Assembly: GCA_027310725.1 (NCBI GenBank)
Contig: DAIDAG010000072.1
Span: 1 to 47,122 of the forward strand
Direction of reading: 5' to 3'
Length of the DNA stretch: 47,122 nt
DNA from: Sideroxydans sp.
GTDB taxonomy: Bacteria; Pseudomonadota; Gammaproteobacteria; Burkholderiales; Gallionellaceae
This document shows positions 12,753-21,724 of this stretch, in pieces; position 1 is the stretch's first letter; every line of letters begins with the position of its first letter. Made by a program: the position numbers and the translations under genes. The notes under the pieces are model-generated. The model worked only from the letters and a program-made list of their open reading frames with translations, ran no database searches and had not been told where the DNA came from.

Positions 12753-15125
12753 ATGACCATGAACGAAAACGAACCACAAGACACACCCGAAATCGAAGCC
12801 CCCGCCCCCGCTGAATCCAGCTCCGGCGGCAAGCGCGAATTCGCCCCGCTCGCCAAGCTCCCCGACAGCGACGAAGTCCTCATCGCCGATTACGCCGAAC
12901 GCGCCTATCTCGAATACGCCGTCTCCGTCGTCAAAGGCCGCGCTCTCCCTGAAGTCTGCGACGGACAAAAGCCCGTGCAGCGGCGCATCCTGTTCTCGAT
13001 GCTGCGCATGGGCCTCACGCACGGCAACAAGCATGTGAAGTCGGCGCGAGTCGTCGGCGATGTGCTGGGTAAGTACCATCCGCATGGCGACTCTTCCGCG
13101 TATGAGGCGATGGTGCGGCTGGCGCAGGATTTTGCGATGCGGTATCCGCTGGTGGATGGCCAGGGCAACTTTGGTTCGCGCGATGGCGACAATGCGGCAG
13201 CGATGCGTTACACCGAGGCCCGGCTCACGCCGATTGCGGATCTTCTGTTGTCCGAGCTGGACATGGGCACGGTGGATTTCATTCCCAACTACGACGGCGC
13301 ATTCCAGGAACCGGCGATGCTGCCTGCGCGCCTGCCGATGGTGTTGCTCAACGGCGCATCCGGTATTGCGGTGGGCATGGCGACCGAGATCCCTTCGCAC
13401 AATCTGAAAGAAGTCGCCAAGGCCGCAGTCGCGCTGGCGAAGAACCCCAACCTCAAGGACGACAAGCTGCTGTCTTACATCAGCGGGCCCGACTTCCCCG
13501 GCGGCGGACAGATCATCTCTTCCGACGCGGACATCCGCGATGCCTACACCACGGGACGCGGCTCGCTGAAGATGCGCGCGCGCTGGACCGTGGAGCAACT
13601 GGCGCGCGGCCAGTGGCAGGTGGTGGTGAGCGAATTCCCGCACGGCGTCTCGGCGCAGAAGGTGCTGGAAGAGATCGACGAGCTGACCAACCCCAAGGTC
13701 AAGGCCAACAAGAAATCGCTCACACCAGAGCAAGTACAGAACAAGCAGCTCATCCTCTCGGTGCTGGATGCGGTGGCGGATGAATCGGACAAATCGCAGA
13801 AGATTCGTCTGGTGTTCCAGCCCAAGACATCGAAGCTGAATCCGGATGACATGATGGCGGTGCTGCTCACCCACACCAGCCTGCAGAACTCGGTGTCGGT
13901 CAACCTCACCATGATCGGTCTGGACGGACGTCCGCAGCAGAAGTCGCTGACGCAGGTGCTGCGCGAATGGGTGGAGTTCCGCCTGCGCACCGTCACGCGC
14001 CGTTGCGGACATCGACTGGACCAGGTCAACGACCGCCTGCACATCCTCGCCGGGCGCATGATCGTTTACCTGAACATCGACGAGGTGATCGCGCTGATCC
14101 GCGGCTCGGACAATCCCAAAGAAGATTTGATGGCGCACTTCGAACTTTCCGAACGGCAAGCCGAAGACATCCTGGAAATCCGTCTGCGCCAGTTGGCGCG
14201 TCTGGAAGGCATCAAGATCGAGAAAGAGATCAAGGCGCTGAAGGCCGAAGCCAAAGAACTGAAGCGCGTGCTCGATAGCGAAGATGCATTGCGCGAGCTG
14301 GTAGTGGGCGAGATCGAAGCCGATGCCAAGACCTATGGCGACGAGCGCCGCACGCTGATCGAAGAAGCGCAGGTGACCAAGGTAACCGCGCAAGTGAGCG
14401 ACGAACCCGTGACGGTGTTCATCTCGCAACGCTTCTGGGTGCGCACAAGACTGGGCCACGGCATCGACGCGACCAGCATCGCCTTCAAGGACGGCGACAG
14501 CATCGCCGCCACCTATGAATGCCGCACCACCGACCAGTGCATCGTCATCTGCAGCAACGGCCGCGTGTGCAGCATCCCCGTCTCGTCGCTGCCCTCCGGC
14601 CGCGGCGACGGCGCACCGCTGGCCACTTTCATTGAACTCGCCCCCGGCGCAAAGATCGCGCACGCCTTCTGCGGCAAGACTGAAACCCCCGTGCTCATTT
14701 CCACCAGCGCGGGTTACGGCTTCCCCTGCTTCCTCGGCGACATGGTCGGCCGCAACAAGGCGGGCAAACAGTTCATCAGCGTGAAGGAAGACACCATCCT
14801 GCCGCCCGTCATCCTGGCCCCGACGCAGAACTCACTCGTTGCCGTGCTGAGCAAGAACGCAAGGCTGCTGGTGTTCGTGCTTTCCGAACTGAAACTGCTG
14901 CAAGGCGGCGGCAAAGGCATGATGCTGATCGACTTGAAAGAGGGCGACGAGCTGACGGCTTGCACGGTAGTGAATTCACCGGCGCTTAACTTGAGCGGCA
15001 CGGCGGGCAGCAAGGTGCAGCAGTTGCATATTGGCGGGAAAGAGTTGAAGGACTACTTTGGGGCAAGGGCCAGGGCTGGGAAGGTGGTTGAGAGTAAGTT
15101 GAAGGCGCTAAAATTTGACCGGTAG
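12753..15125 (+). CDS. parC: DNA topoisomerase IV subunit A
   Basis: 790 residues. The winged-helix/tower core opens with [29 protein letters not shown]. The active-site Tyr153 is in [11 protein letters not shown]. The quinolone-pocket segment [17 protein letters not shown] retains Ser114 and Glu118, the residues typical of susceptible enzymes. The C-terminal domain has degenerate blades ([20 protein letters not shown]). Length and one-sided C-terminal domain fit ParC rather than GyrA. About 25 residues of acidic, Ala/Pro-rich sequence precede the core. The ATG at 12753 or the one at 12759 could be used, and neither has a strong ribosome site. It acts with ParE in decatenation. Confidence 0.96.
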
Positions 15126-15270
15126 ATCTGAGAATGTGATTCAAGAGCTGGCACCTTAACTTTTTTTCATCTGTCACAGAGTATTTGCTTGGACAATCAT
15201 AAGCGTGCATATTCGTTTCTTAATATTGCGAAGCCAAACAGTAAGCATTTAGTGAGGGAGAAAATTCAAT

Positions 15271-17748
15271 ATGCAGGCACTTTTTGAACTTACTGAGGGA
15301 AAGAAACGACTTCAGGCTTTGATTGAATCTTTTCCAATCGACAGCCCTCATTGGAATGAAGCACAGAATCGTTTTCAGTTCATTGATCGCATGCTTACTG
15401 AGTGCCTAGGTTGGGATAAGCCCGACGTCGAGTTGGAGAACTCCGACGAACTCGGTGGCAAGTCAGATTATCTATTAGGGCATCCACCGAAGGCAGTGTT
15501 AGAAGCAAAAAGGGAAGCAAAGCTCTTTGAAATTCCACCCACTGGCAACCCTACTGTTGTACGCAAGATTCAACCATTGCTCCTATCATCAAAGAATTTC
15601 AAAGAAGTTGTCCACCAAGTAATTCCGTATTGCGCTATTCATGGAGCACAAATAGCGATAGTTTGTAATGGCCCCCAGCTCGCGATTTTTCAAGCGATCG
15701 TACCAGGCCAGGCACCGCTTGAGGGCGAGTGCTATTTTTTTAATGGCTTCAGCTCCTATGTGGAATATTTTCCGCTTCTTTGGAAATTACTATCACCCGA
15801 GGGTATAACAGAAAACTGTGCCTATAGAGATTTATCGTTGCACCGCAATCCTAGAATTCCACCAAAGGCATCTACCTCTATTCCTGAACCACTAAAATAT
15901 CGCTATAGAAATGCGTTTCAAGAAGACCTTAGATCACTATCTGCACTCCTCCTTGAGGAAATTGAAGACAACCCAAAATTAAAATCTTCTTTCTATGAGG
16001 AATGTTATGTACCCATTGAGGCAAATAATAGGCACTTGCTGCTAAGCAAGAATATTATTTCCGCACGATACAGACGCGTTAGCGAGGATGGGGTAGTTCC
16101 CTCATCGCTAGAAGCGGCAACCACAATAGATAATGCAGGTGAGCTGAAACTCACAGACCCCGCATTAGCAGGCTCTACTGGATCTCGGCCTATAGTCGTT
16201 ATTGGCGATGTCGGCGTGGGTAAAACATCTTTCTTTGAAAATCTTTTTGAAAGTCTTGAAAGTACCGAGAAGGCCAACACCTACTTTATCCATCTTAACC
16301 TAGGTACCAAAGCGAATTTAGCTACTGATATAAAGTCCTTTGTGCTAACTGAAATCCCATTCGTATTAAAGAACAAGTATGGTGTTGACATCGATTCTGC
16401 TGATTTTGCCAACGCGATTTATCACAAGGATTTGTTGGATTTCGATACCAGCGTTAAAGGTGGATTAAAGAGCATCGATGAAAACGCATATCGGAGAGAA
16501 AAGATTGCTTTTCTTTCTGACAAGATTTGCAACCGTGATAGACATCTTCAAGCATCGCTTGGGCATTTGGCGCGTGGCCGCAATAAGCAAATCATTCTTG
16601 TGCTTGATAACGCAGACCAACGCTCATTTGCTGTTCAACAGGAAGCCTCCCTAATAGCCCAAGAGCTCGCAGCATCTCGGAATCTCCTAGTGTTTGTCGC
16701 ATTACGACCAAGCACGTTTTATCTCTCCAAAACGACTGGTGCACTATCTGCCTATCAGAATAAAATTCTTACAATTTCCCCACCACCAGCGGATGAAGTT
16801 GTGCAAAAACGTCTAATTTTTGCAGCTCGTGTTGCCGAGGGAAAAGTAGAGCCAACTGCTTTGTCAGGTATCCGATTACACCTTGGCAGCGTTGTATCTT
16901 TTCTTAACGCCACATTAAGATCTATTCGTAACAGCGAACCGATAAAGCAGTTTCTAAGCAATATAACTGGCGGAAATACACGCGCAGTTATCGAGCTAAT
17001 AACTGGTTTCTTTGGCAGTCCCAATGTTGATTCCCGGAAGATAGTTCGACTAGAGGAAGAAACTGGTACCTATAAAATTCCTCTTCATGAATTCACCAAA
17101 CATGCACTACTAGGTGAATATGCATACTTCAATTCACAATCTTCCTTTTTGGCGTGCAATATTTTTGACGTCAGTACGGCTGATCCGAGGGAGCATTTCT
17201 TAGCCAGTCTAATTGTGGCATTCCTAAGTTCGAATTCTGGTGTTTTGGATAATGATGGCTTTGTAAATGGGCAAGAAATAATGTCCGAGATGGTCCGCCA
17301 TGGTTTTGTTGATGATCAAATACGTTGCACACTGCGGCGGCTGGCCACCAAGCGTCTAATAGAGACGCCTCATTCGCATTATCGAGAGCTACAGGTGGAT
17401 GATCATGAACCGCCCGAACAGTTCCATTTCAGAGCGACATCCGTGGGGATCTACCACATAAGATTCTGGACTGGTTCGTTTGCTTTTCTTGATGCCGTTT
17501 CAACAGACACGCCTATTTTTAATCGGGAAGCTCGAGAAAAAATTTCAAAGTTAGCGGCTTCGTTCGAGATTGAAGATCGATATCAGAAGGCAGATTGTTT
17601 TAAATCGTATCTTGAAAATCAGTGGCATCTATCAAATTTCGCTGCCAACTACTACGATTTTGCGACCCTGGTGCAAAGCCAAGAAGATACATTTAGTTCA
17701 GTTCGGCATGTTCTCGACCGAAACACAGCGCATAGAACTATCAAGTAG
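15271..17748 (+). CDS. restriction-type nuclease fused to a P-loop (STAND/ORC-like) ATPase, putative defence protein
   Basis: 825 residues. Residues about 1-180 resemble the N-terminal endonuclease domain of type I restriction subunit HsdR, a PD-(D/E)xK fold: Asp66 in KSDYLL, Glu78-Ala-Lys80 in VLEAK, and a Q116xxxY120 motif in HQVIPYC followed by IAIVCNGPQLAIF. A linker leads to an ATPase domain with Walker A GDVGVGKTS (312-320), Walker B IILVLDNAD (441-449) and a sensor-like VALRPSTF (477-484). Residues about 680-735 look like a winged helix. There is no helicase or methyltransferase. Codon use is much more AT-rich than parC, so it was probably acquired. GGGAG precedes the ATG. Nuclease and ATPase motifs are seen; the defence role is inferred. 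Confidence 0.75.
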   Translation: MQALFELTEGKKRLQALIESFPIDSPHWNEAQNRFQFIDRMLTECLGWDKPDVELENSDELGGKSDYLLGHPPKAVLEAKREAKLFEIPPTGNPTVVRKIQPLLLSSKNFKEVVHQVIPYCAIHGAQIAIVCNGPQLAIFQAIVPGQAPLEGECYFFNGFSSYVEYFPLLWKLLSPEGITENCAYRDLSLHRNPRIPPKASTSIPEPLKYRYRNAFQEDLRSLSALLLEEIEDNPKLKSSFYEECYVPIEANNRHLLLSKNIISARYRRVSEDGVVPSSLEAATTIDNAGELKLTDPALAGSTGSRPIVVIGDVGVGKTSFFENLFESLESTEKANTYFIHLNLGTKANLATDIKSFVLTEIPFVLKNKYGVDIDSADFANAIYHKDLLDFDTSVKGGLKSIDENAYRREKIAFLSDKICNRDRHLQASLGHLARGRNKQIILVLDNADQRSFAVQQEASLIAQELAASRNLLVFVALRPSTFYLSKTTGALSAYQNKILTISPPPADEVVQKRLIFAARVAEGKVEPTALSGIRLHLGSVVSFLNATLRSIRNSEPIKQFLSNITGGNTRAVIELITGFFGSPNVDSRKIVRLEEETGTYKIPLHEFTKHALLGEYAYFNSQSSFLACNIFDVSTADPREHFLASLIVAFLSSNSGVLDNDGFVNGQEIMSEMVRHGFVDDQIRCTLRRLATKRLIETPHSHYRELQVDDHEPPEQFHFRATSVGIYHIRFWTGSFAFLDAVSTDTPIFNREAREKISKLAASFEIEDRYQKADCFKSYLENQWHLSNFAANYYDFATLVQSQEDTFSSVRHVLDRNTAHRTIK

Positions 17749-17780
17749 GCGAAATCGATAAAGTTATGAGCTAAAGTAGT

Positions 17781-17890
17781 TAAAGGAGTTAAAGGGGGCC
17801 GATTAAAGGGACCAAGTTCGGATTGTTTGCTGCAACCAAAACCGTCGCGGAGGCTAAAGGGGTTAGCGTCGCATTATTTTCTTGCCTTCA
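17781..17890 (+). repeat. cluster of degenerate AAAGGRGNCAGG repeats (copies A1, A2)
   Basis: Copy A1 (17805-17846) has AAAGGGACCAAGTTCGGATT and, 12 bases on, ACCAAAACCGTC. Copy A2 (17856-17890) has AAAGGGGTTAGCGTCGCATT. A partial copy precedes them at 17781. Related copies lie at 18655, 18759, 20463 and 23165, all in the same orientation. Confidence 0.7.
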
Positions 17891-18004
17891 TAGATACTCG
17901 GCAAGAGTGAGGAAGGCAATTTGATGCTGCCCCATTTCGAAGCCTTAGACAGGAAAATGGATTTTCAAACAATCAGGGCAATAAGAACTACGAGAGGGAT
18001 TCAT

Positions 18005-18559
18005 ATGCTGGATAGCGTTATAAAACTCACAGAAAAGATCACAGAACTCCTCCAGTATCGCAACGAGCGAAGGGCACGGCAATTCAAAATCCTAATTGAA
18101 CCCACGTACCTTGCTCTAAAGGTAGTTCACCAAGACTATTTATCCATATTCGAGACAGCTCGGAAAGAACTCGCCTCAGGCTCCCCCTTGAGCACAGTTG
18201 CGGATTTACTCGAATCACGTCGGTTAGAAGAAGAGGCAGAGCGTAGAGCAATAATTGAGCATGCGAAAACGATGCGCTTAGATAAATCACTTGCTGACTA
18301 CCATTCATTCTTCGATGCCATCATTCAGTATTTTAGAAAAACGCCTTTCTCTGGGGGCAGTACGCCATCCAATTCTTTCTTGCATTCGCTACGCGATGCA
18401 GCAAATAGCCAGCCACTAATTCAAACAAACGCCCCATCCGGCCGCAATCCCAGAGATAGCCTCGTGAATGCCACTGAACACTCGTTGCAGATGCTACGGA
18501 AGAACTGGGAAATAGTGTCTACTGAATACGCCAAGGTACTTGCTGCGAGCATCGAATAA
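18005..18559 (+). CDS. small helical protein of unknown function, partner candidate of the nuclease-ATPase
   Basis: 184 residues, predicted almost wholly alpha-helical. A long N-terminal helix (LDSVIKLTEKITELLQYRNERRARQFK) is followed by a second charged helical stretch (LLESRRLEEEAERRAIIEHAKTMRLDK). A Ser/Asn/Pro-rich linker and a C-terminal helix come after. There are no membrane segments, cysteine pairs or recognisable catalytic motifs. The ATG at 18005 has GAGAGGG six bases upstream, while the open frame back to 17921 lacks a ribosome site. It lies 256 bp behind the nuclease-ATPase, shares its AT-rich codon use and strand, and is bracketed by repeat copies at 17.8 and 18.66 kb. A shared function is likely but unproven. 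Confidence 0.7.
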   Translation: MLDSVIKLTEKITELLQYRNERRARQFKILIEPTYLALKVVHQDYLSIFETARKELASGSPLSTVADLLESRRLEEEAERRAIIEHAKTMRLDKSLADYHSFFDAIIQYFRKTPFSGGSTPSNSFLHSLRDAANSQPLIQTNAPSGRNPRDSLVNATEHSLQMLRKNWEIVSTEYAKVLAASIE

Positions 18560-18654
18560 GAGAACTCAAATTAAAGGTACAGGAGTCGATTTCTTTTCAG
18601 CCATGCCTTTCTTCAAATCAATTCGCAAGTAATTGGGGACAGACCACGCAAATT

Positions 18655-18806
18655 AAACGGGCCAGGCTCGAGTTATTCCCAGCGACCAAAACCCTCAGGC
18701 TTTTCAGCGAAATAATCAGGGACAGCGCCCTAATTTCTACGCAGCCATTTTCTAACTCAAAGGAGCCAGGCTCGAATTGATTTTTCGGGAAACCATATTG
18801 AGCCTA
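18655..18806 (+). repeat. degenerate AAAGGRGNCAGG repeats (copies B and C)
   Basis: Copy B (18655-18696) reads AAACGGGCCAGGCTCGAGTT and later ACCAAAACCCTC. Copy C (18759-18806) reads AAAGGAGCCAGGCTCGAATT. Each is preceded by a GGGGACAGACC- or AGGGACAGCGCC-type tract (18635, 18718). The whole gene gap 18560-18868 consists of this material, and no gene is seen in it. Confidence 0.75.
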
Positions 18807-18868
18807 GCCCCTTTGATTCTTCTCAAGGTCTGGCAGCGCCAACCGCCCCATCACTTGGACTCAGCGAA

Positions 18869-20095
18869 CTAGTCGCCGCCACGGCTGATGTAGTGCTGCT
18901 TTGTCTTTCCAATCAGCAGGCCTCCATCCGACTCCACATAGGTTTGTGCAGTTTCGCCGCTGCCGAACAGCATGCCCGCCACATGGCCATCGCGCACTTC
19001 TGCGATGTGGGAAAAAAGCAGCTCCACACGGTGGTCCTTGTAGTGTTGGTAGGTGTCGTTCTGGTAGGAGTTGCCCAGTGGCAGTTGCCAGAGAAAGAAT
19101 GGCTTGCCCACGGCCGTCGAAACATCCTTCGTCCACTGCAAGAAGGCGGTCATCTTGGTGACATCCCAGTCATGCCCTGGCTGCCCCTTCACCAGGAGGT
19201 ACCAATCGGCATCGCGATCGCTGGGGTCTGTCACCAGGAAGTCGCCATCAGCAGCGCCCATGGCAAGCATGAAGTTGGCCCAGGATGTGGCATCACCCGC
19301 ATTGGTATAGGTCCAGGGTGAGAAATGCAGGCCCACCGTGGCGTTGGGCGCATAGATGCGCACCATGTGGATCATGCACTTGGCAAAGCCGGCGGCATCG
19401 TCGGTATATCCCGTGCTGCAGTCAGTTCGGCTGCTCGCTGTCACCTTGGCGGGAATGGCGCTAGGCAGGCCCGTAGTCGTGTCGGCTCTGGCTTTCAGGT
19501 AGCCGAACAGGTCGGGCTCGATGTGCAGCATGGCTTTTTCGGTGCCGATCTTCTGCAACAGGAAACGCCAATCGTCGAAATAGGTGGTCAAAAATGTCTG
19601 GTCGTTCAGCGCAGCCGTTTCTCCAGTGGGAGATGGCCCTTCGCTCAGCCCGGAAGCGGGCAATACCATGTAATAGGTGAAATACGGAATTTGCGGACGA
19701 GACACGGAGTTCCAGGTGCGTGCCTTGGCCGTGCTGATAAAGCGCGTCGCGAACAAACCGCGTTGCGGGATATTCTCCTGCCAGGCTCCCCACCAGGAGC
19801 ATGATGACACGGGCACCGTGCCACTCATGCACCCTGCGTGGTCATAGGTGCTGAAGCTGGCCGAATTCAGATATTGGTACTGCATGTCGAAAGGTGCCGA
19901 GTCGCCAGAAGTGCTGCTTCCCGAGAAACCCACCATCACCTTGGTGTGCCCCATGAAAGGCGTACTCAGCGTTGAGTTGGCTGGTGTTGTGCTCACACTG
20001 AAATCCATAACCGGGCTGCTGCTCACCGGCGACCCTACGCTCCCTCCCCCGCAAGCGGACAAAATCAATCCCAACAGCAAGTAGCCGACACGCAT
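18869..20095 (-). CDS. exported lipoprotein, possibly glycoside-hydrolase-like
   Basis: 408 residues from MRVGYLLLGLILSACGGGS, a textbook lipoprotein signal with lipobox LSAC. A Ser/Gly/Thr-rich linker follows, then a domain of about 350 residues. That domain has strand-ending acidic motifs (AMLHIEPDLFGYL, FLVTDPSDRDADW) and aromatic clusters (FFLWQLPLGNSY, GLHFSPWTYT) typical of TIM-barrel sugar hydrolases. The EPD segment could hold a catalytic acid. I cannot name a family, and the enzymatic role is inference. The ATG at 20095 is chosen because GGGAGA lies 5 bases before it. The gene stands alone, with repeat copies on either side (18.76 and 20.46 kb), which suggests cargo. Confidence 0.75.
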   Translation of the reverse strand: MRVGYLLLGLILSACGGGSVGSPVSSSPVMDFSVSTTPANSTLSTPFMGHTKVMVGFSGSSTSGDSAPFDMQYQYLNSASFSTYDHAGCMSGTVPVSSCSWWGAWQENIPQRGLFATRFISTAKARTWNSVSRPQIPYFTYYMVLPASGLSEGPSPTGETAALNDQTFLTTYFDDWRFLLQKIGTEKAMLHIEPDLFGYLKARADTTTGLPSAIPAKVTASSRTDCSTGYTDDAAGFAKCMIHMVRIYAPNATVGLHFSPWTYTNAGDATSWANFMLAMGAADGDFLVTDPSDRDADWYLLVKGQPGHDWDVTKMTAFLQWTKDVSTAVGKPFFLWQLPLGNSYQNDTYQHYKDHRVELLFSHIAEVRDGHVAGMLFGSGETAQTYVESDGGLLIGKTKQHYISRGGD

Positions 20096-20462
20096 GCATT
20101 CTCCCGAACTCAATGAAGGGCACCCCTAATAATCCAAATTTTAGTTACGACATAACCTAAAGATTAGTCTTCACTGAAACTGCGTTTTGTCGCAATACTA
20201 CGTTGCTCACAAAAAATTGCTCTTTACATATAGCGCCATCGACACGTTACTGCAAAGCAGCCGTTTGCGGGAGATGGCGCCAGCGGTCATTCCCGCACCA
20301 GACGGCTCCGCCGCACCGTGTCATGACTGCATATGCTGCGTCGCAATTTTTTGCTCGCGCCTTGTCTTGCTTAGAACTTTGAATTATTAGAGGCGCCCTG
20401 AAAAAATCGACCGCCAACGTCGGCTGGTACACGAAGGATAGCAAAGCAAAGGAATATAGCCA

Positions 20463-20504
20463 AAGGAGTCAGGTTCGGATTGTTTTCAGGAACCTAATCC
20501 GTCG
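20463..20504 (+). repeat. degenerate AAAGGRGNCAGG repeat (copy D)
   Basis: It reads AAAGGAGTCAGGTTCGGATT, then CCTAATCCGTC, as in the other copies. It lies within the 544-base gap 20096-20639, where I see no gene. The left part of the gap must hold the lipoprotein promoter and the right part the toxin-antitoxin promoter. Confidence 0.75.
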
Positions 20505-20639: not shown

Positions 20640-20969
20640 ATGCCCATGATCGAAGTCTTCCGATACCAGACTGAAGATGGCACAGAGCCAATAACCGCTT
20701 GGTTGCAGTCGCTACGAGACAAGCAAGCGCAGGCCAAGATTCGCGTCCGCCTCAAACGACTGGAGGCCGGCAATTTTGGAGACTGTGATCCGGTAGGTGA
20801 TGGCGTGCTGGAATTGCGCGAGCACCTTGGTGCAGGGTATCGGGTGTACTTCGGTCGGCATGGCCAGACAGTCGTCATCTTGCTGTGCGGTGGCACCAAG
20901 AAATCGCAAACGGCAGATATCAAGACCGCCAAGGAATATTGGCAAGATTGGAAGCGGAGGCAAACATGA
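20640..20969 (+). CDS. RelE/HigB-like toxin (phage-Gp49/HI1419 type)
   Basis: 109 residues matching the 'addiction module killer protein' group of the RelE/ParE superfamily: EVFRYQTEDGTEPITAWLQSLRD, KIRVRLKRLEAGNFGD, and VGDGVLELREHLGAGYRVYF, with a final strand VVILLCGGTKKSQ. Such toxins cleave mRNA on the ribosome. The Arg and Lys residues of these strands are present, so it is probably active. The stop overlaps the antitoxin start by four bases (ATGA at 20966), the usual toxin-first order for this subgroup. An ATG two codons downstream is also possible. Confidence 0.9.
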   Translation: MPMIEVFRYQTEDGTEPITAWLQSLRDKQAQAKIRVRLKRLEAGNFGDCDPVGDGVLELREHLGAGYRVYFGRHGQTVVILLCGGTKKSQTADIKTAKEYWQDWKRRQT

Positions 20970-21298
20970 GCAAGAAAATTAAAGCTGCGGTATCACATCA
21001 CGAACTTGAAGTAGCCGAGCTGCGCGCAGATCGCGAACTGGCTGTCGAATATCTCAAAGCCGCCATGGAATCTCTCGACGATCCCGATGATCGCGCAGCT
21101 GGTCTACTTGCACTGCGCACCGTTGCCGAGGCATATGGCGGATTAGGTGCGGTTGCCGCCGAGGCAGGTATCAGTCGCGAATCGCTGTATCGCACTCTCT
21201 CGGCCAATGGTAACCCAACGCTAAAAACGCTGCTCGCCGTGCTGAAGGTGGTAGGCATGAAACTTTCGGTGGAGCCGGACCAACACGTAGCCGCGTAA
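20966..21298 (+). CDS. antitoxin of the toxin-antitoxin pair (HI1420-like, HTH)
   Basis: 110 residues. The C-terminal half is a helix-turn-helix (GGLGAVAAEAGISRESLYRTLS, then NPTLKTLLAVLKVVGMKLSV), the pattern of HI1420-type antidotes that neutralise the upstream toxin and repress the operon. The N-terminal half is helical and acidic and probably contacts the toxin. The start at 20966 overlaps the toxin stop, while the open frame back to 20885 lies inside the toxin gene and is not used. The palindrome at 20621 is the expected operator. Confidence 0.9.
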   Translation: MSKKIKAAVSHHELEVAELRADRELAVEYLKAAMESLDDPDDRAAGLLALRTVAEAYGGLGAVAAEAGISRESLYRTLSANGNPTLKTLLAVLKVVGMKLSVEPDQHVAA

Positions 21299-21322
21299 GT
21301 AATACGGCCGGGTAGGTTTGAA

Positions 21323-21724
21323 ATGAACGCACGAGCTAAAACAGCAATACAGCATTGGGGCTTCGTTGCACCGCTGTTGCAACCTGCGCGCAATGCAAAG
21401 GAGTATGCACTGTTGGTAGAGGCGCTGGACGCGGCGATCGATGCGGGCGGCGCGGATGAAAAGCATCCGCTCGCGCGTCTGGTTGAATACCTCGGCGATT
21501 TGGTTGCCGAATACGAGGCCAAAGACAAGGTGCCGGCCGCCGCAACCGGTGCGGATGCGCTACGTTACCTGATGCAGCGCGATGGCTTGCGTCAGGTCGA
21601 TCTACCCGAACTGGGTAGCCAGGGTATGGTGTCCGAGTTGCTCTCTGGTCGGCGCGGGTTTAATGCTCGTCAGGTGAAAGCTTTGGCTGAGCGATTTGGT
21701 GTTTCGGCAGCTTTGTTTTTGTAA
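21323..21724 (+). CDS. HigA-like XRE-family regulator without its own toxin
   Basis: 133 residues. A helical N-terminal region (IQHWGFVAPLLQPARNAKEYALLVEALDA) precedes an XRE helix-turn-helix (LRYLMQRDGLRQVDLPELGSQ, GMVSELLSGRRGFNARQVKALAERFGVSAALFL). This is the architecture of HigA antitoxins that normally follow a HigB toxin. No HigB-like gene is adjacent. Instead it lies 24 bases behind a different antitoxin, so it may be an orphan that cross-regulates or protects against other HigB copies. AGGT lies 6 bases before the ATG. Confidence 0.85.
   Translation: MNARAKTAIQHWGFVAPLLQPARNAKEYALLVEALDAAIDAGGADEKHPLARLVEYLGDLVAEYEAKDKVPAAATGADALRYLMQRDGLRQVDLPELGSQGMVSELLSGRRGFNARQVKALAERFGVSAALFL

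Follow-up and report, generated by a model that had tools for sequence, protein, structure and literature searches.

An HsdR-type nuclease domain joined to an Orc/Cdc6-like ATPase: a candidate single-gene defence protein in the parC slot of Sideroxydans

Nucleases of the HsdR type belong to the PD-(D/E)xK nucleases and are recognised by the motif D...(D/E)xK...QxxxY. In type I restriction-modification, the nuclease goes together with an SF2 translocase, HsdM and HsdS. AAA+ ATPases of the Orc/Cdc6 type typically have a sensor-2 arginine, and the Walker B motif is usually DE, with a catalytic Glu. A nuclease effector can also be joined to an NTPase within a single chain, as in Avs4. As far as the description drawn on here goes, Rousset 2022 includes, from the P4-satellite hotspot, STAND proteins that combine C-terminal repeats with a Mrr_cat or BpuSI_N nuclease domain (PMC9122126), and the account of DefensePredictor gives 13 further validated systems with PD-(D/E)XK domains (PMC13092281). 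The protein family described below may overlap with those DefensePredictor systems; text searches of the literature found no paper that ties to the family.

The window, i.e., the whole stretch of DNA that was analysed (47,122 nucleotides of Sideroxydans sp., contig DAIDAG010000072.1), has the following features in and around the gene of interest, ORF A.

12753..15125, plus strand: parC, the conserved left edge of the slot
15119..18645, no strand: variable slot, absent from the nearest relative (G428)
15271..17748, plus strand: ORF A, 825 aa; predicted HsdR-type PD-(D/E)xK nuclease, AAA+ (Orc/Cdc6-like) ATPase and winged helix; member of PHROG 14719
15271..15840, plus strand: predicted nuclease domain, residues 1-190 (invariant motif residues, Foldseek, N-terminal profile, Pfam matches of relatives)
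15466-15468, plus strand: D66, invariant in 24 aligned proteins
15502-15504, plus strand: E78, invariant in the 24
15508-15510, plus strand: K80, invariant in the 24
15616-15618, plus strand: Q116, invariant in the 24
15628-15630, plus strand: Y120, invariant in the 24
16168..17070, plus strand: AAA+/P-loop ATPase region, about residues 300-600 (Pfam, structure model, Foldseek)
16204..16230, plus strand: Walker A, GDVGVGKTS, residues 312-320 (alignment)
16588..16620, plus strand: Walker B with DN-x-DQ, residues 440-450 (alignment); Asn replaces the usual catalytic Glu
16981..16983, plus strand: Arg571, sensor-2-like, mostly in G-[N/D/S]-x-R, invariant in the 24
17185..17439, plus strand: winged-helix-like segment, residues 639-723 (secondary structure of the model)
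17800..17847, no strand: dispersed repeat copy between ORF A and ORF B, with related copies at 18568, 18650, 18754 and 20462
17921..18559, plus strand: ORF B, 212 aa, a separate passenger and not a conserved partner of ORF A

Both open reading frames, and the motif residues D66, E78, K80, Q116 and Y120, Walker A G312-S320 and Walker B D446 and D449, lie where the preliminary description had placed them. ORF A is adjoined by parC, ORF B and an ORF of 414 aa on the minus strand that has no Pfam match. The GC content of its region is 0.44 versus 0.61-0.62 over parC, and that of third codon positions is 0.38 versus 0.80, confirming the sharp difference from parC that had been remarked upon. The protein had been called a nuclease-ATPase fusion and not a restriction-modification layout, and this holds: Pfam finds no helicase, methyltransferase or specificity domain in it, and the flanking ORFs are none of these.

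The motif of HsdR-type nucleases is complete in the ORF A protein (D66, E78-A-K80, Q116, Y120), and both active sites, that of the nuclease and that of the ATPase, are unchanged across 24 aligned sequences which are 19-80% identical to it. Alignments A1-A4 leave out L009, whose open frame is in pieces; A3 and A4 also leave out L074, L078, L080 and L083 (broken or partial), L066/L014 (the same contig found twice), and L079 and L084 (subtype or contig shared with L085). By Foldseek, the nuclease domain is weakly nearest to DrdV, BpuSI (the second match) and HsdR, the top five matches all being restriction enzymes at E 0.009-0.06, with none reaching E 0.001. The sole match of the N-terminal profile to PDB sequences is the type I R subunit 3h1t (E=0.0011); this entry recurs (E=0.025), beside almost only P-loop proteins, among the best 60 of 119 PDB matches of the profile of the whole family, and the whole ORF A protein on its own gives no match in PDB sequence comparison. 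Neither HSDR_N nor HSDR_N_2 matches the window's protein at E<=1 in Pfam, and three of six scanned relatives reach the Pfam gathering score (HSDR_N_2 in L018 and L021, HSDR_N in L020).

Thus, the protein is like type I HsdR in having an N-terminal PD-(D/E)xK domain with Q-x3-Y, in the only PDB sequence match of its N-terminal profile and in its nearest folds, but unlike HsdR it has an AAA+ ATPase in place of an SF2 translocase, and no HsdM or HsdS adjoins it; nor do the loci of 11 relatives have any recurrent neighbour. A remnant of a restriction-modification system was rejected, as there is no translocase and no conserved methylase neighbour. ORF A could instead encode an ATP-dependent restriction enzyme of the type IV kind, which would recognise modified or unmodified DNA directly and cut it without a partner methylase. 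The HsdR-type nuclease and the lack of a conserved methylase neighbour fit such an enzyme, as do records that name relatives “type I restriction endonuclease” or “Predicted type IV restriction endonuclease”; this is nevertheless unlikely, given that Pfam detects neither an SF2 translocase nor a recognisable modified-base reader domain in ORF A or six relatives, and that the type IIG match found at the N-terminus is weak (E=0.015) and spans only the nuclease part.

In the structure model (pTM 0.64) the nearest Foldseek matches of the ATPase are Cdc6 (1fnn, E=1.3e-6) and BREX BrxC (E=9.2e-4), and chains of ORC, OCCM or clamp-loader entries fill ranks 2-20, although these superpositions are partial, with target TM-scores mostly 0.2-0.4 and rmsd mostly above 10. 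Structure prediction, which had been proposed as a check, placed the ATPase nearest Orc/Cdc6 and the nuclease domain, weakly, nearest restriction enzymes. The winged-helix-like segment is present in the model, as three helices followed by strands, but at about residues 639-723, somewhat earlier than the 680-735 first given. The Walker A glycines, Lys318 and D446/D449 are invariant in the 24 aligned proteins, and all 24 have DN, not DE, in Walker B; because the usual Glu is missing, ATP hydrolysis could be slow or absent. The protein is thus like Orc1/Cdc6 and BREX BrxC in its AAA+ core, winged helix and sensor-2-like Arg, and unlike them in its fused nuclease and its Walker B. Among P-loop NTPases of the KAP kind, which include Tmn, relative L018 passes the Pfam cut-off for KAP_NTPase and a homologue on a Paracoccus plasmid adjoins a Tmn-like gene, but the window's protein has no KAP_NTPase match at E<=1 in Pfam.

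The order of effector and NTPase would also suit a STAND/NLR-like sensor, in which, as in Avs-type systems, recognition of a phage protein by the ATPase and C-terminal region would lead to oligomerisation and turn the nuclease on. One chain joining a nuclease effector to an NTPase is likewise found in the STAND proteins with Mrr_cat or BpuSI_N in the part of Rousset 2022 considered here (PMC9122126), and BpuSI ranks second among the Foldseek matches of the nuclease domain. ORF A has Pfam matches to AAA_16, ATPase_2 and NACHT, and relatives have nSTAND_NTPase5; however, the three matches of ORF A are weak and all below the Pfam cut-off, so that no STAND-type NTPase is present at the curated threshold, and structural comparison ranks Orc/Cdc6 entries, rather than STAND proteins, at the top. 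After the winged helix the chain runs on for only about 100 residues, and the secondary structure of the model contains no apparent C-terminal repeat array of the sort that would serve as sensor. The ATPase resembles an AAA+ module of the Orc/Cdc6 type more than it resembles a sensor carrying a large repeat domain, and a STAND/NLR-like mode of action is accordingly rather doubtful.

The family to which ORF A belongs is PHROG 14719 (833 positions): residues 25-782 match positions 23-782 (E=4.8e-68), a full-length match, and relative L022 matches at E=2.3e-281. The PHROG library lists the function as unknown, and sequence records label its members “hypothetical” or “P-loop NTPase fold”. In PADLOC 2023 and NCBIfam 2026 no full-length model matches the window protein or six relatives, which bears out the impression that no named system fits; the best matches are of L021 to part of DrmMI (6.8e-6, PADLOC) and of L020 to part of the orc1/cdc6 model TIGR02928 (1.6e-5, far below cut-off, NCBIfam). 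Homologues occur on chromosomes, plasmids and prophages in several proteobacterial classes, from environmental bacteria to E. coli (15 records) and Klebsiella, and in all four E. coli records opened the homologue sits at an extra-gene position inside a prophage. Since the family has no match in 50,697 phage records, its link to phages rests on prophages and contigs of viral collections. Long matches (E<=1e-60) are sporadic, in four of 398 genomes (the window's own, G202, G210 and G387); the total of 46 PHROG matches was rejected as a family count, because most are short and four of 14 control genomes also match. Broken copies exist, such as L009 and an E. coli copy split by IS1. In the tree, two gammaproteobacterial copies group with the window protein (97/95), and classes are mixed at further forks, some of them weakly supported; this was not taken as proof of transfer.

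No neighbour recurs beside the homologues at the loci of 11 relatives: the gene is solo. This bears directly on ORF B, which had been proposed as the second gene of a two-gene module. ORF B is probably a real gene, judging by its sequence: ORFs like it are expected by chance about 7e-4 times in that stretch, and its codon score is best in its own frame. It shares strand and low GC with ORF A at a distance of 172 bp, which would suit a two-gene system, but the gap contains dispersed-repeat sequence, and a homologue of ORF B is absent from all 11 loci that encode ORF A proteins 59-80% identical, the very outcome named beforehand as counting against the pair. None was found in 60 further genomes from the genus, family and order, in plasmids or in viral contigs; loci L063-L065 entered only the search for ORF B. 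Of 397 other genomes of the phylum, one has a distant match, next to a putAbiC gene, and for this genome no match to the ORF A family is listed. The module was therefore rejected, a joint system being extremely improbable; ORF B is an unrelated neighbour. Nor do repeats bracket the region as supposed: copies sit between ORF A and ORF B and 3′ of ORF B, and those at 12.1-12.7 kb, before parC, are of another kind. A mobile unit with shared ends was likewise rejected, as the flanks of 11 copies, compared over at most 1 kb (less on the upstream side of L001 and L007), have no common boundary sequence, matching only over 38 bp between L004 and L005 and in a 26-bp dispersed repeat between the window and L010.

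The strongest evidence for defence is the slot. The slot, which ORF A fills, begins at the parC stop codon; G428 matches the window to 15118, resumes at 18646, is continuous from 18770, and holds a SIR2-domain gene in between. Of 14 relatives in the same genus whose full-length ParC match is at least 89%, 13 have AT-rich, mostly unrelated DNA immediately behind parC (the contig of the other, G364, stops there); of ten relatives with a ParC match of 65-72%, five were examined. In none of the 13 does the slot DNA share a stretch of at least 60 nt with the window's cargo, and in five the right edge resumes, 95-97% identical, 0.6-2.6 kb after parC. The slot holds, among others, PD-Lambda-5, PARIS-like, SIR2 and Fic genes (in L093, Fic lies 4.4 kb away from parC). 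Of 20 cargo proteins scanned, 15 match PADLOC models at E<=1e-5, with kinase, methyltransferase and beta-lactamase-fold domains of a generic sort among the hits, in contrast to one of ten large hand-picked ORFs beside ORF A homologues elsewhere; of the 13 relatives, L056 was compared with Pfam only and L057 was left out of the scans. Elsewhere the homologues are not clearly clustered in defence islands, as nine of the ten neighbours have no defence match. ORF A is foreign cargo and, because the slot holds other, unrelated defence genes in related bacteria, probably a defence gene; the low GC and the contents of the slot agree with the earlier suggestion of foreign cargo in a defence context. 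Alternatively, an Orc-like initiator ATPase with an origin-processing nuclease could serve plasmid or prophage maintenance or replication control, for which the Orc/Cdc6-like fold and the homologues on plasmids and in prophages would speak; the chromosomal copies, the sporadic occurrence and the defence-type genes that take ORF A's place after parC make this very unlikely.

The reading preferred here, with a probability of about 0.6, is that ORF A encodes a single-gene defence protein, an ATP-gated putative nuclease directed against phage or plasmid DNA. Its basis is the domain make-up, the invariance of both active sites, the solo and scattered occurrence, the defence slot, and the prophages and plasmids. 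From these we infer an activity, a DNA trigger, ATP gating of the nuclease and a cut target. The gene would be self-contained and carried as exchangeable cargo. The Orc/Cdc6-like AAA+ module and winged helix would bind invading DNA, or a DNA structure made in phage or plasmid replication, in an ATP-dependent manner, probably as an oligomer, and binding would license the N-terminal HsdR-type nuclease to cut either the invader's DNA or any DNA, as a suicide response. More tentatively, and as a possibility on the doubtful side, an AAA+ DNA clamp of the Orc/Cdc6 type may have been turned into a sensor, which sees a DNA structure associated with the invader's replication and sets off the fused nuclease directly, giving immunity from one protein.

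Because ORF A is a single gene of some 2.5 kb whose two active sites can be mutated, it is cheap to test, and the slot 3′ of parC provides a list of candidate defence genes for the genus. If active, ORF A would link origin-recognition ATPases to immunity, and if the clamp-turned-sensor idea is true, PHROG 14719 would constitute a novel class of nuclease that senses DNA, present in several proteobacterial classes on chromosomes and plasmids and in prophages.

Two open reading frames follow parC in the window, and one of them has a distant relative elsewhere:

15271-17748, + strand: ORF A, 825 aa, beginning 145 bp past parC
17921-18559, + strand: ORF B, 212 aa, TTG start codon followed directly by ATG, beginning 172 bp past ORF A
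L089:7526-9919 (genome G336): distant ORF B relative adjoining a putAbiC-domain protein

The GC content of the ORF A/ORF B stretch is about 44%, as against 61-62% across parC, and third-position GC is 0.38 in ORF A, 0.48 in ORF B and 0.80 in parC; the window is one entire contig from a draft genome of 80 contigs that is 65% complete. Dispersed repeats (TTAAAGG..CAGGCTCGAATT) occur within 17800-20504, at 17800, 18568, 18650, 18754 and 20462, and a 26-bp piece of the repeat is also present 3′ of the ORF A homologue in locus L010. A 414-aa open reading frame (18869-20113, - strand) is lipoprotein-like by eye and gave no match in a Pfam search; its DNA is shared with locus L055 and, at 84%, with L058. 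Short overlapping frames at 20640-21724 are putative HigB/HigA-type toxin-antitoxin genes.

In Pfam, ORF A itself has only AAA-type matches, all sub-threshold. Among six relatives scanned (five 20-22% identical to ORF A, and L016 at 38%), curated cut-offs were passed for HSDR_N_2 by L018 and L021, for HSDR_N by L020, and for KAP_NTPase by L018. Across 24 aligned proteins, 19-80% identical to ORF A, the nuclease residues D66, E78, K80, Q116 and Y120, the Walker A glycines and Lys318, and D446, N447, D449, Q450, R514 and R571 are invariant. The Walker B position reads DN; the usual form is DE. A winged-helix-like segment is predicted at about 639-723. One family member, on an Acinetobacter plasmid (L020:1827-4757), carries a C-terminal cold-shock-domain extension, possibly a nucleic-acid sensor.

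An AlphaFold2 model of ORF A, built from the 24 aligned proteins, had a mean pLDDT of 79.8 and a pTM of 0.64. Its best PDB match was Cdc6 (1fnn, E=1.3e-6), followed by ORC, OCCM and clamp-loader chains, and the BREX protein BrxC came 21st (E=9.2e-4); the modelled ATPase is Orc/Cdc6-like. The N-terminal 248 residues, modelled separately (pLDDT 75.7), gave restriction enzymes as all five top matches, the best being DrdV, BpuSI and HsdR structures at E values of 0.009-0.06, short of conventional significance. The N-terminal sequence profile had one match in the PDB, a type I R subunit (E=0.0011), and in a viral structure library the whole model matched first a phage protein whose name refers to a type I R N-terminal domain (E=1.8e-4). 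Motif, profile and fold jointly give the nuclease assignment, and the HsdR-type nuclease and P-loop ATPase of the preliminary description are borne out.

The match of ORF A to PHROG 14719 runs the length of the protein. Proteins 59-80% identical to ORF A are encoded by 11 loci from other genomes, and one of these copies, at L009:8001-10461 (Candidatus Accumulibacter), is broken into three open frames. Relatives are found in 23 plasmid records (six covering at least 80% of ORF A) and 19 viral-collection loci, and long matches occur in four of 398 genomes from the phylum, including that of the window. In E. coli, there are two subtypes, in 7 and 8 of 5,426 genomes, counts that include one copy split by IS1 and one annotated in two pieces, while two records look like one strain; in all four records opened, the gene is an extra one within a prophage, adjoining a DUF977 gene. 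Almost no flanking DNA is common to the copies of ORF A, and the mobile unit therefore appears to be the gene itself. In the tree, the window protein groups with two gammaproteobacterial copies (97/95), which is no more than a hint.

ORF B had been proposed as a small partner in a two-gene module. A homologue of it is missing from all 11 loci, and no frame besides ORF A recurs in three or more of them. The single distant match to ORF B, at 26% over 116 aa, lies in a genome that is not among the phylum genomes matching the ORF A family. Thus, ORF B is a neighbour rather than a partner, and the two-gene module is abandoned.

The nearest relative (G428; ParC 98% identical) agrees with the window at about 95% as far as base 15118, at the end of parC, and from 18646/18770 onwards; what it has between these flanks is a 702-aa SIR2-domain gene of 45% GC. 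In 13 of 14 same-genus relatives (full-length ParC, at least 89%), conservation of parC extends to the stop codon, and the 500 bp beyond it are 39-49% GC; the fourteenth contig ends at parC. More distant relatives (ParC 65-72%; five of ten examined) have 52-58% GC there, and in L096 an AT-rich stretch begins only 2.5 kb past parC. When the window and the 13 relatives were compared pairwise over the 5 kb past parC (2.8 kb for L061), no stretch of at least 60 nt was shared in the first 2.4 kb, with two kinds of exception: 355 bp common to L093 and L094 at 79%, and a right edge common to L057, L061 and L092. This edge consists of an ORF region with 95-97% identity among L057, L058, L060, L061 and L092; in these five of the 13 it resumes 0.6 to 2.6 kb past parC, in L060 first with 133 bp at 2.6 kb and then with the remainder at 3.7 kb. 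It resumes so soon in L057 that the slot is nearly empty, holding one 144-aa frame. The last parC codons of the window (15090-15125) differ from those of all 13 relatives and include one extra codon, as though insertion had exchanged the tail. About 413 bp past parC, L093 (G423) has a second partial parC 3′ end of 51 codons, with 69% identity to the window, as if brought by an inserted element.

The cargo of these slots includes PD-Lambda-5 A (E=1.8e-172) and B (1.7e-124) in L090, AriA and AriB-like genes in L060, a DndB/DpdB-like gene with a D12 methylase in L059, Fic in L093 (4.4 kb from parC), QueC plus PDC-M57 in L094, PDC-M21B in L061, a kinase with a YaaC-like gene in L058, and a methylase/GHKL/MBL operon in L062. 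In two pooled scans of the 11 relatives other than L056 and L057, 15 of 20 cargo proteins, in nine of these relatives, matched PADLOC at E<=1e-5, several through generic domains; L091 (two frames) and L092 (one) had no match, and L056, searched in Pfam alone, had none there. As a rough background, one of ten large neighbours of ORF A homologues elsewhere matched (Tmn), both these and the cargo frames being chosen by size and place.

ORF A is foreign and solitary, keeps both active sites across its family, and is placed where relatives hold defence-type genes. It is most likely a one-protein, ATP-gated nuclease that would target phage or plasmid DNA. A defence role has a probability of roughly 0.8; ORF A is very probably an active DNA nuclease, and gating by the ATPase is somewhat favoured. 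The Orc-like fold points to DNA itself as the activating signal, direct sensing by ORF A being a tentative proposal; the main rival is a protein trigger, as in STAND systems. A nuclease and an NTPase in one chain is a known principle, but ORF A differs from known examples in its Orc/Cdc6-type ATPase without a repeat sensor, and is therefore a variant. Neither PADLOC 2023 nor NCBIfam 2026 contains a model that covers it, and a literature search, with most subscription papers and all supplements beyond its reach, gave no paper tied to the family.

The compared sequences of loci L055-L062 and L090-L094 mark the parC 3′ end as a hotspot for defence genes within the genus. Its unassigned cargo, e.g. 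the 774-aa frame of L092 (298-2622) and the genes of L091, provides candidate defence genes.
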